64,000 nucleotides of DNA from Acidisphaera sp. L21 (lineage in GTDB: Bacteria > Pseudomonadota > Alphaproteobacteria > Acetobacterales > Acetobacteraceae), in assembly GCF_009765685.1 (NCBI RefSeq), contig NZ_LMUY01000007.1:1-64000 (forward strand), in the 5' to 3' direction. The notes beneath the pieces were generated by a model, which had not been told where the DNA came from, made no database searches, and was given only the letters and a program-made list of their open reading frames with translations. Both the position numbers and the translations under genes were made by a program. Positions 25,015-27,889 of this stretch are shown here, piece by piece. Numbering within the stretch: position 1 is the first letter of the stretch; every line of letters begins with the position of its first letter.

Positions 25015-26952
25015 ATGATGACAGATCTTTCCGCCCATCTTGCCACGGTCGATACCTCGTTCTTGGCAGCCGTGGCGCTGCATCGCATGGGGCGGATTGA
25101 AGAGGCGGAATTGGCCTATGACGGCCTGCTGGCGCGCGAGCCGTCGCATGGGCCGACGCTGCACATGGCGGGGATGCTGGCGTTTCAGCAGGGCCGGGTC
25201 GAACTCGCGGCGCAGCGGGTCGGGCGGGCGTTGGCGCGCGGGCACCGCAGCGGCGTGGTGCTGGAGCATCACGGGCTGATCCAGCAACACCGCGGCGACC
25301 TGGCCGGGGCCGCGGCGAGTTTTCGCGAGGGCCTGGCGCTGGACCCGGTGTCGGGCAGCCTGTGGTTCAATCTGGGCGTGGTGGAACGCGAGGCCGGGCG
25401 GCTCGGCGAGGCGGTGGCGGCGTTCTCCACGGCTGCGCCGCTGTTGCAGCAGGGCTTTGCCGAACGGGCATTGGGCCAGGTGCTGCAGGACACCGGGCGC
25501 GGGGCGGAGGCGGCGGTGGCCTATGCGCGCGCGCTGGCGATGGACCCGTCGGATGCGGCCTCGGCGTTGAATGCAGGGGTCATCGCGCAGCAGGCGGGGG
25601 ATTTGGCGGCGGCGGCGGCGTTGTATCGCCAGGCGCTGGCAGCCGGCCCGGCGTTGATGAACGCGCGCATCAACCTGGCCTGCGTGCTGCAGGAGAGCGG
25701 GGACGTGGCGGCCGCGACGATGGAATACCAGGCGATCCTTCGCGAGGCCCCGCAGGCGACGCAGGCGATGAACAATCTTGGCACTGCCCTGCGCAGCCTT
25801 GGCCGGGACGACGAGGCGGAGGCGTGGTTCCGCCGTGTCTTGGAGACCGAGCCCTGCCATCCGGAGGGGAGCGACAACCTGACCAAGTTGCTGCTGGATC
25901 TGGGTCGGGTGGACGAGGCCGTGGCGGTGCGACGGCAGCTTTGTGCGACACATCCGGCGGATGGCGGCTGCTGGCTGGAGTTGGCGCGCGTGCTTGGCGT
26001 CGCCGGACAGCAGCGGCAGGCGGAGGACGCGTTGCGCCAGGCGCTGGTGCGGGATCCCGGGCTGGGCGAGGCGCATTGCGCGTTGGGCGATGCGGCGCAT
26101 CGGCGGCGGGATTGGGCCGGGGCCGCGGTGTCGTATCGCGCGGCGGCGGTGCTGGCGCGGGACCGGACGGAGCCGCAGCTTGGGCTAGCGCTGGTGGCGC
26201 TGAAATCGGGTGACCCGGCAGCGGCGTTGGCGGCTTGCGACGCTGTGCTGCGGCACGACCGGTTCGATCAGGGTGCGATCGCGTATCGCACCCTGGCGCT
26301 GCAAATGGCGGGGTTGGCGGAAGAGGCGCAGCGGCTGAGCGATCCGGATGAGCTTGTAACGGTGATCGACCTCGACATCGATGCGGGGGCGCTGGGGGTT
26401 TTGGCCGCGGACCTGATCGGGTTGCGCCACCGGGAGTATGCGCCGCGCGGCCAGAGCGTCCGGGGTGGAACGCAAACGAGCAACGAACTGTTCGCCGAGC
26501 CGGTGGACAGCATACGGCAATTGCGCGGCGCGCTAGATGCGGCGATCGGTCGCTATTTGGCGAAGCGGCCGGTGGATGATGCGCATCCATTTTTCGCCGC
26601 CATGCCGGCGCAGTTGCATTATCACAGCTGGTCGATCGTGCTGCGGGCCTCCGGCTACCACGTGCCGCATATTCACCCGGGTGGCTGCTTGAGCGGGGTG
26701 TTCTACGTGGCGGTGCCGCCGTTCGCGGGGGCGGAGGATGCCGGGTGTTTGGAAATCGGGCGGCCTGGGTTTGAGGTGCCGTTACGTGCGGCGCCGAAGC
26801 GGCGGCTGGTGCGCGCGGTGCCGGGGCGGCTGGTGCTGTTCCCGAGTTATCTTTGGCATGGCACTCGGCCGTTCGAAGGGCCGGGGGAGAGAGTGACGGT
26901 CGCATTCGATATTCGGTTCGGGGGGAAGAGGCTGCCGGTGGGGCGGTGGTGA
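25015..26952 (+). CDS. TPR protein with C-terminal putative 2OG-Fe(II) oxygenase domain
   Basis: The 645-residue protein has about a dozen tetratricopeptide repeats over residues 10-440 (for example GSLWFNLGVVEREAGRLGEA and QAMNNLGTALRSLGRDDEAE). A C-terminal domain of about 200 residues contains YHVPHIHPGGCLSGVFYVAV, GRLVLFPSYLWHGTRPF and VTVAFDIRFG. The C-terminal motifs fit the putative 2OG-Fe(II) oxygenase family PF13759, with candidate metal ligands His in HIHPG and LWHG; the acidic ligand is not clear. It may hydroxylate a protein or glycan bound by the TPR arm (inference). The gene stands alone and is divergent from the nuclease gene. Confidence 0.82.
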   Translation: MMTDLSAHLATVDTSFLAAVALHRMGRIEEAELAYDGLLAREPSHGPTLHMAGMLAFQQGRVELAAQRVGRALARGHRSGVVLEHHGLIQQHRGDLAGAAASFREGLALDPVSGSLWFNLGVVEREAGRLGEAVAAFSTAAPLLQQGFAERALGQVLQDTGRGAEAAVAYARALAMDPSDAASALNAGVIAQQAGDLAAAAALYRQALAAGPALMNARINLACVLQESGDVAAATMEYQAILREAPQATQAMNNLGTALRSLGRDDEAEAWFRRVLETEPCHPEGSDNLTKLLLDLGRVDEAVAVRRQLCATHPADGGCWLELARVLGVAGQQRQAEDALRQALVRDPGLGEAHCALGDAAHRRRDWAGAAVSYRAAAVLARDRTEPQLGLALVALKSGDPAAALAACDAVLRHDRFDQGAIAYRTLALQMAGLAEEAQRLSDPDELVTVIDLDIDAGALGVLAADLIGLRHREYAPRGQSVRGGTQTSNELFAEPVDSIRQLRGALDAAIGRYLAKRPVDDAHPFFAAMPAQLHYHSWSIVLRASGYHVPHIHPGGCLSGVFYVAVPPFAGAEDAGCLEIGRPGFEVPLRAAPKRRLVRAVPGRLVLFPSYLWHGTRPFEGPGERVTVAFDIRFGGKRLPVGRW

Positions 26953-27082
26953 AGGCGGGATTACCCGATCGGGCATGACGGCGAATGGCTCTTTTCCGAC
27001 TCCGTAATATCCTGCGGCGGCTTAGAACGATATGCGCTTTGTGCGATGTCGCGGGCGTCGGAGGAATTTACACTAGCGAAAC

Positions 27083-27217: not shown

Positions 27218-27233
27218 TGGCACGCTAATTGCA
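27218..27233 (+). promoter_or_regulatory. Sigma-54 (RpoN) promoter, -24/-12 elements
   Basis: TGGCACG-CTAA-TTGCA matches the RpoN consensus TGGCACG-N4-TTGCW exactly, with GG at 27219-27220 and GC at 27231-27232, giving the required 10-bp spacing. Transcription should start about 12 bp after the GC, near 27244, and the PEP-CTERM gene begins at 27266. Such a promoter needs an AAA+ activator such as PrsR; no gene for one is in the window. Confidence 0.85.
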
Positions 27234-27265
27234 CTGGTGTGTCCAGTTGAACACAGGAAGTGACC

Positions 27266-27889
27266 ATGCACGGATTTAAAACGCTTGTAGCCGCGGGATT
27301 GATGAGCGGCCTGGTCGGGGTTGGCCCCGCGCTTGCAACCACACTGAACACGACCTTCACTGGAACCGCGGCAGAAAGCTTGCCTTTTCCGGTTCCAACA
27401 CAAGTTATTACAATTAACGGTGCATTTTCAACCTATTCTGCGTCTTCTGATTTGCCCCAGTTGGCTGGGGGAGATCTTGCAAACTACAGCTTTACTTTGT
27501 CGGGCACGAATCCGACCTATAGTGCTGCAACGAATAGTGCGACATACGGATCGACCACTGGCACAATCAATGGCTACGGGGCTGTTGTTCAGGATGTATC
27601 CGTCACAAATCTGACAGTTGATTTCACGACTGGCGCCATTACGGGGATGCTGTATTCCGATGGGGCGATGCATCCATCTGGGTTTCCGGCTGGTGACATC
27701 GTTGATTTCACACCGGCTGACGGCGCGTCGATACTGGGCGAGTATGTTCCAGGTGGCCCAGCGGGCGGCGGACTCGGCGGCACGGTTTCGGGATCCATCA
27801 CCTTCGTTCCCGAGCCCGTTTCGCTTGCAATTCTTGGCTCTGGCCTGTTTGGACTGGTAGCCGTCCAGCGCCGCAAGAAAATTGGCTAA
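27266..27889 (+). CDS. PEP-CTERM sorting domain-containing exported protein
   Basis: The 207-residue protein has a signal peptide (TLVAAGLMSGLVGVGPALA-like, cleavage about residue 20), a Thr/Ser/Gly/Asn-rich beta-type body without Cys, and a C-terminal tripartite sorting tail: PEPVS, a hydrophobic stretch (LAILGSGLFGLVAV) and QRRKK. PEP-CTERM tails are recognised by exosortase, cleaved and anchored or released in exopolysaccharide-producing bacteria. AGGAAG lies five bases before ATG 27266. Codon use and GC are clearly lower than in neighbours. The gene is alone behind a sigma-54 promoter; no exosortase gene is in the window. Confidence 0.93.
   Translation: MHGFKTLVAAGLMSGLVGVGPALATTLNTTFTGTAAESLPFPVPTQVITINGAFSTYSASSDLPQLAGGDLANYSFTLSGTNPTYSAATNSATYGSTTGTINGYGAVVQDVSVTNLTVDFTTGAITGMLYSDGAMHPSGFPAGDIVDFTPADGASILGEYVPGGPAGGGLGGTVSGSITFVPEPVSLAILGSGLFGLVAVQRRKKIG

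Follow-up and report, generated by a model that had tools for sequence, protein, structure and literature searches.

The PEP-CTERM gene and its surroundings

The window, that is, the whole stretch of 64 kb that was analysed, carries on its forward strand a gene for a PEP-CTERM protein of 207 amino acids (27266–27889). By eye, the product begins with a signal peptide and ends in VPEP, a membrane helix and RRKK. This C-terminus, VPEPVSLAILGSGLFGLVAVQRRKKIG, passed the model TIGR02595 (cut-off 16) with 17.2 bits in one search and 21.2 bits in another, the latter score belonging to the sorting-type signal at 27806–27877 (forward strand), and it straddled the PF07589 cut-off of 20.7 with 19.6 bits in one search and 23.6 bits in the genome search. 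The match therefore lies near threshold; the PEP motif, helix and basic end together nevertheless exceed the TIGR02595 cut-off, and the PEP-CTERM gene that the preliminary description had read from 27266 was upheld. An in-frame GTG was noted at 27260, ahead of the ATG at 27266.

The top NCBIfam match of the protein was the PepA model NF033554, aligned over residues 169–205 only, and identity with the PepA flocculation protein was rejected, since the score of 36.4 bits falls short of the cut-off of 80. No relative of the protein was seen in a scan of the genome contigs, and a search of the family sample returned nothing above 32.4 bits except the protein itself. Its structure, predicted without an alignment, had a mean pLDDT of 38.7. 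The best matches of the neighbouring fumarase, at about 70% identity, came from acetic acid bacteria and Acidobacteria alike, by which the host would probably belong to the Acetobacteraceae. Upstream of the gene lies a protein (25015–26952) that combines TPR repeats with a 2OG-Fe(II) oxygenase domain at its C-terminus; it was considered as PrsT and rejected because of its sub-cut-off score on TIGR02917 (127 bits against 312) and the oxygenase domain that it carries.

The GC content of the gene (54.8%) and of its upstream region (50.2%) is well below that of the window (67.3%), which had been taken as a hint of separate origin. A comparison was made with 47 loci of relatives, selected by a filter separate from the one behind the motif-pair set of 47 described below. 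GC of the PEP-CTERM reading frame was lower than that of the flanks in 39 of the 47, with a mean difference of −3 points and a lowest one of −10.8; for the 250 nt upstream it was lower in 45, with a mean of −10 points. At two further PEP-CTERM genes of the same genome, GC fell short of the surrounding 20 kb by 1 and 7 points. The window gene, 12 points below the window mean, lies further down than any of the 47 relatives' genes does against its own flanks; it is the most extreme case and may yet be of acquired origin, but since low GC is partly general to PEP-CTERM genes, the argument from it to such an origin is overall weak.

Sigma-54 promoter and upstream activator site

Directly ahead of the gene, a −24/−12 promoter for sigma-54 (motif 2) was read at 27218–27233 on the forward strand and confirmed by an exact pattern match. 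It consists of TGGCACG (27218–27224), CTAA (27225–27228) and TTGCA (27229–27233), it agrees with TGGCAC-N5-TTGC in having 10 bp from the GG (27219–27220) to the GC (27231–27232), and it ends 32 nt ahead of the reading frame at 27266. From standard sigma-54 geometry, with the start 12 nt past the −12 element, transcription is predicted to begin at about 27244, and an AGGAAG is found between this position and the ATG.

The bare match to the sigma-54 sequence was not significant, since control patterns and shuffled sequence gave similar counts. The exact pattern occurred six times in the whole 6.38-Mb genome, about its chance frequency, against three occurrences of the reversed control, and with up to one mismatch two sites were obtained in the window against 0.92 expected, two or more being seen in 26 of 100 shuffles. 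The search for other such sites that had been proposed earlier thus yielded five further exact matches, on a background in which the reversed control already gives three. Unlike the sequence match itself, the position of the promoter is significant: by a hand estimate from the genome count, an exact match falls within 100 nt before a given gene with a chance of about 5e-5. The gene for RpoN was found on contig C9 with all three sigma-54 domains, as had been expected.

Two of the other exact sites lie ahead of genes of a different kind. One (L004, 1501–1516) stands 36 nt ahead of the cyanase gene cynS, measured by hand, and the other (L005, 1501–1516) about 40 nt ahead of the likely start of urtA of a urea transporter, also by hand. 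Nitrogen genes of the cyanase and urea-transporter type are often under NtrC/RpoN control, and these two sites perhaps belong to an NtrC nitrogen regulon.

A second element was recognised further upstream. Motif discovery in the 200 nt before the sigma-54 sites of 20 relatives, this genome being excluded, gave the motif GTGTCGGAAAACTTTACAC; the set of 20 includes one locus with a PAP tail (L050), as the sigma-54 screen admitted a few PAP (non-PEP) tails. The resulting matrix identified a putative activator (enhancer) site, GCGTCGGAGGAATTTACACT, at 27055–27074 on the forward strand, which fits motif 1 of Haft 2006 and ends in TTTACA upstream of motif 2. In the available text of that paper (PMC1569441), motif 1 is a 17-nt element with a TTTACA end, proposed as the PrsR site, and it was by this description rather than by the logo that our motif was likened to it. 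The site scored 20.5, the highest value of the whole 64-kb window on both strands (runner-up 11.9), and in 300 shuffles the upstream region never reached this score. It is separated from the −24 element by 143 nt, beyond the spacer of 32–92 nt (mean 62.8, S.D. 10.6) that the same text gives between motifs 1 and 2; most relatives have 58–61 nt, and one has 134 nt. Bacterial enhancers act at a distance.

The same arrangement was observed at other PEP-CTERM genes of this genome, in which TIGR02595 detected four tails, on contigs C158 (the window), C101, C25 and C18, and PF07589 one or two depending on the search. The C101 gene (L206, 8935–9777), whose product has a nidogen-like domain, is preceded by TGGCACG-TATG-TTGC with motif 1 (18.8 bits) 39 nt away. 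The C25 gene, whose tail scored 18.8 bits on TIGR02595 in the genome search and 14.2 as a separate protein (cut-off 16), is preceded by TGGCCC-AAATC-TTGC with motif 1 (18.5 bits) 50 nt away. Both spacers fall within the range in the available text of Haft 2006. The C18 gene is truncated by the contig end. When the pair was defined by a motif 1 score of 12 bits or more and a sigma-54 site, no more than one core mismatch allowed, 25–200 nt further on, it was present at all three genes with an assembled 5′ end (core mismatches 0, 0 and 1) and only there in 131 kb of this genome (window, L019, L020, L206 and L207). Each of the three motif 1 scores (20.5, 18.8 and 18.5) was reached in 0 of 300 shuffles; all were inside the leave-one-out range of the relatives (15.5–29.7) and below its mean of 22.5.

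We therefore regard the promoter at 27218 as real, because the best motif 1 of the window lies upstream of it and the same pair stands at two other PEP-CTERM genes of the genome. A chance sigma-54 look-alike ahead of an AT-rich acquired gene would fit the six exact genome matches against three for the reversed control, and the GC of 55% in a window of 67%. Such an accident is nonetheless very improbable, given two independent elements at three genes out of three, the shuffles for each activator site and the absence of the pair from the rest of the 131 kb. Sequence, 10-bp spacing and the adjoining activator site together bear out the promoter claimed in the preliminary description, and the locus is very probably a single-gene, sigma-54-type PEP-CTERM unit that carries both control elements of the PEP-CTERM/exosortase regulon, a type already known from the prediction of Haft 2006. 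This probability applies to the cis unit; the possible causes considered below have to do with the trans half and do not conflict with it.

The pair was not universal among relatives. Of 59 of their PEP-CTERM loci (29 + 30, taken as best matches and not as a random sample), 47 offered both a usable gene and a usable 5′ end, and the pair was missing at 26 of these; among 52 genes whose 5′ end could be used, 23, the three of this genome included, had a sigma-54 site that departs from the core at one position or none. The pair occurred at 19 of 34 genes whose genome is PrsR-positive and at 2 of 13 whose genome is PrsR-negative (Fisher p 0.02); the latter two come from G288, which is 75% complete, and G044. 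A motif 1 that was learnt from one bacterial family can serve to pick out PEP-CTERM promoters, for which a −24/−12 match alone is uninformative.

Exosortase, PrsK and PrsR in the genome and its family

The preliminary description had presented the unit as an exosortase substrate and a trans-acting target of PrsK/PrsR, with both an exosortase and RpoN expected in the genome. The assembly is a 162-contig draft of 6.38 Mb with a completeness of 98.79%, and it gave no exosortase match with PF09721 and none over the cut-off with TIGR04178. One TIGR04178 match on C67 (E = 3) was discarded, as its translation reads by eye like an ABC sugar permease. PrsK (TIGR02916) gave 40 matches in the assembly, none over the cut-off (best 89.6 against 300 bits).

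For PrsR, PF00158 returned nine matches over its cut-off, of which five are full-length sigma-54 activators and four are weak and partial (22–28 bits). The five scored 318–379 bits on TIGR02915 against a cut-off of 502.6, and they are at most 44% identical to the PrsR proteins of 30 relatives, which average 68% among themselves. The recognition helix of those proteins reads SRPTLY in 28 of 30 and SRTTLY in two, and neither form was present in any of the five. Two of the five pass their own family models as NtrC and NtrX; FlbD is the clear top family of a third, at 675.6 bits below its cut-off of 750; and the remaining two, on C95 and C135, were assigned to no family. On contig C95 (L019, 10619–13488), a membrane histidine kinase is followed by a sigma-54 activator with PrsR as its best family (378 bits, below cut-off).

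Exosortase, PrsK and PrsR were thus not found in a 98.8% complete assembly, and the claim of an exosortase substrate under PrsK/PrsR is for that reason not available for this organism. The cis features that would make the gene a member of a PrsK/PrsR/RpoN-type unit, activator site included, did hold up; the two regulators did not, and as to the two genome-wide expectations, RpoN is present and the exosortase is missing from the 162-contig draft. The unit is cis-intact and trans-missing from the assembly, and the three causes considered next are inseparable here.

It is a serious possibility, if short of probable, that the organism does have the exosortase and its regulators, encoded in a part that the 162 contigs do not cover, and that the system is ordinary and complete. 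In G051, G152 and G175, PrsR and exosortase lie about 13–15 kb apart, and one gap would therefore remove both; in other relatives, such as G124, they are on separate contigs, and one gap need not take both. The activator sites, scoring inside the relatives' range, and the C18 gene cut at a contig end are in keeping with such a gap. Against it stand the completeness of 98.79% and the finding of no exosortase fragments by a search that detects a 44-residue fragment in G288.

The family sample, 299 genomes with this one included, gave a further view. PF07589 tails were found in 133 genomes, exosortase in 111 and PrsR over cut-off in at least 80; the best 27 tail candidates per genome were scored, so that a figure of 27 means at least 27, and for PrsR the best five candidates per genome (E ≤ 1e-120). 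PEP-CTERM tracks exosortase in this sample, with an exosortase in 110 of 133 PEP-positive genomes compared with 1 of 166 PEP-negative ones. The 23 PEP-positive genomes with no exosortase match include this one, for which the negative rests on two models, and for the other 22 on one search; 17 of the 23, this genome among them, also had no PrsR among the candidates scored. At least 95% completeness was recorded for 13 of the 23, again including this genome, which also speaks against a mere gap in the assembly.

Among them, G044 (loci L208–L214 and L075) is a single contig of 3.4 Mb in which 16 PEP-CTERM tails, but neither exosortase nor PrsR, were detected. Seven 20-kb stretches of it (140 kb) contained five motif 1 sites of 20.9–30.4 bits, three of them paired with a sigma-54 site that has one core mismatch or none; an exosortase was not among their genes. 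The state of cis sites without trans parts may accordingly not be unique to the genome studied here.

Tentatively, exosortase, PrsK and PrsR may instead have been truly lost, and recently, so that what persists is a small orphan regulon, by now silent or in decay. G044, with PEP-CTERM genes and strong sites but no exosortase or PrsR match, is in line with this, and the available text of Haft 2006 (PMC1569441) describes a comparable remnant in Chlorobium tepidum, with two PEP-CTERM proteins and no EpsH. PEP-CTERM genes are few here (four by TIGR02595, one or two by PF07589, against a PF07589 median of 10 in exosortase-positive relatives), and none of the three activator sites attains the relatives' mean score. 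On the other side, promoters and full-length reading frames are undamaged at all three genes, as would be expected only if the loss was recent, and exosortase-negative relatives are not clearly poorer in PEP-CTERM genes (median 8 against 10).

That the kinase/activator pair of C95 or C135 has taken over the PrsR sites seems rather unlikely. NtrC, NtrX and FlbD, assigned by best family, account for three of the five full-length activators and would leave these two as candidates, of which C95 comes nearest to PrsR, with no more than 44% identity and with TIGR02915 as its top family (378 bits, under the cut-off of 502.6). Their predicted recognition helices, GISRVGLIKK and GIHRQLLYDK, differ from the SRPTLY/SRTTLY of the relatives, and the C95 kinase resembles PrsK in its catalytic core only. 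It is doubtful, too, that a functional sigma-54 PEP-CTERM regulon persists in this lineage in the absence of exosortase, PrsK and PrsR, in which another activator would read the PrsR sites and the tail would serve as a plain membrane anchor or be cut by another protease.

Known systems and possible working of the unit

The closest counterpart is the PEP-CTERM/EpsH system with PrsK–PrsR and sigma-54, as far as the available text of PMC1569441 describes it. The unit shares with it a single gene, a long AT-rich upstream region, a motif 1 ending in TTTACA, motif 2 and a PEP-CTERM product, and differs in the lack of a detected exosortase, PrsK and PrsR and in a spacer of 143 instead of 32–92 nt. 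The start of pepA in Aquincola tertiaricarbonis RN12 has been mapped and its RpoN1 dependence shown, according to the accessible part of Xia 2023 (PMC9850573), and control of the Zoogloea PEP-CTERM gene pepA by PrsK/PrsR/RpoN is stated in the background section of PMC9012009. As the available portions of these sources present it, pepA resembles the window gene in having an RpoN-type promoter directly ahead, and the PepA model is the gene's top match; the window gene differs in scoring below the PepA cut-off, matching only over residues 169–205 and not lying beside prsT.

Chlorobium tepidum, again in the available text of Haft 2006 (PMC1569441), is similar in having few PEP-CTERM genes and no exosortase detected, and dissimilar in that the genome studied here retains sigma-54 and activator sites, the motifs in that text coming from Proteobacteria only. 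For Ferrovum, the part of PMC4886054 at hand deals with the system in its entirety, either present or possibly lost, and not with orphan promoters. A literature search worded as PEP-CTERM with no, without or lacking exosortase returned nothing under that wording.

By analogy, a phosphorylated PrsR-type activator would bind at 27055–27074 and loop to the RpoN polymerase, and transcription would start near 27244. The signal peptide would export the product, and the C-terminal helix would hold it in the inner membrane. Where an exosortase is present, it is thought to process PEP-CTERM proteins towards the exopolysaccharide layer. At all three assessable genes the cis half is in place, its trans half being unassembled, recently lost or replaced. 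The locus thus offers a case of an intact cis half with the trans half missing from a nearly complete assembly, at which one could test whether PEP-CTERM proteins are used independently of exosortase, or in what order the parts of such a system disappear.

The spacers between activator site and promoter showed one further regularity. Those outside 54–63 nt (39, 48, 50, 71, 72, 82, 134 and, in the window, 143) tend to differ from 59 nt by whole helical turns (Rayleigh p about 0.003 for the eight values, in a post hoc test, with four spacers from one genus, three from this genome and one from a third). We take this as a lead only towards a helical phasing of activator distances, as looping would favour.
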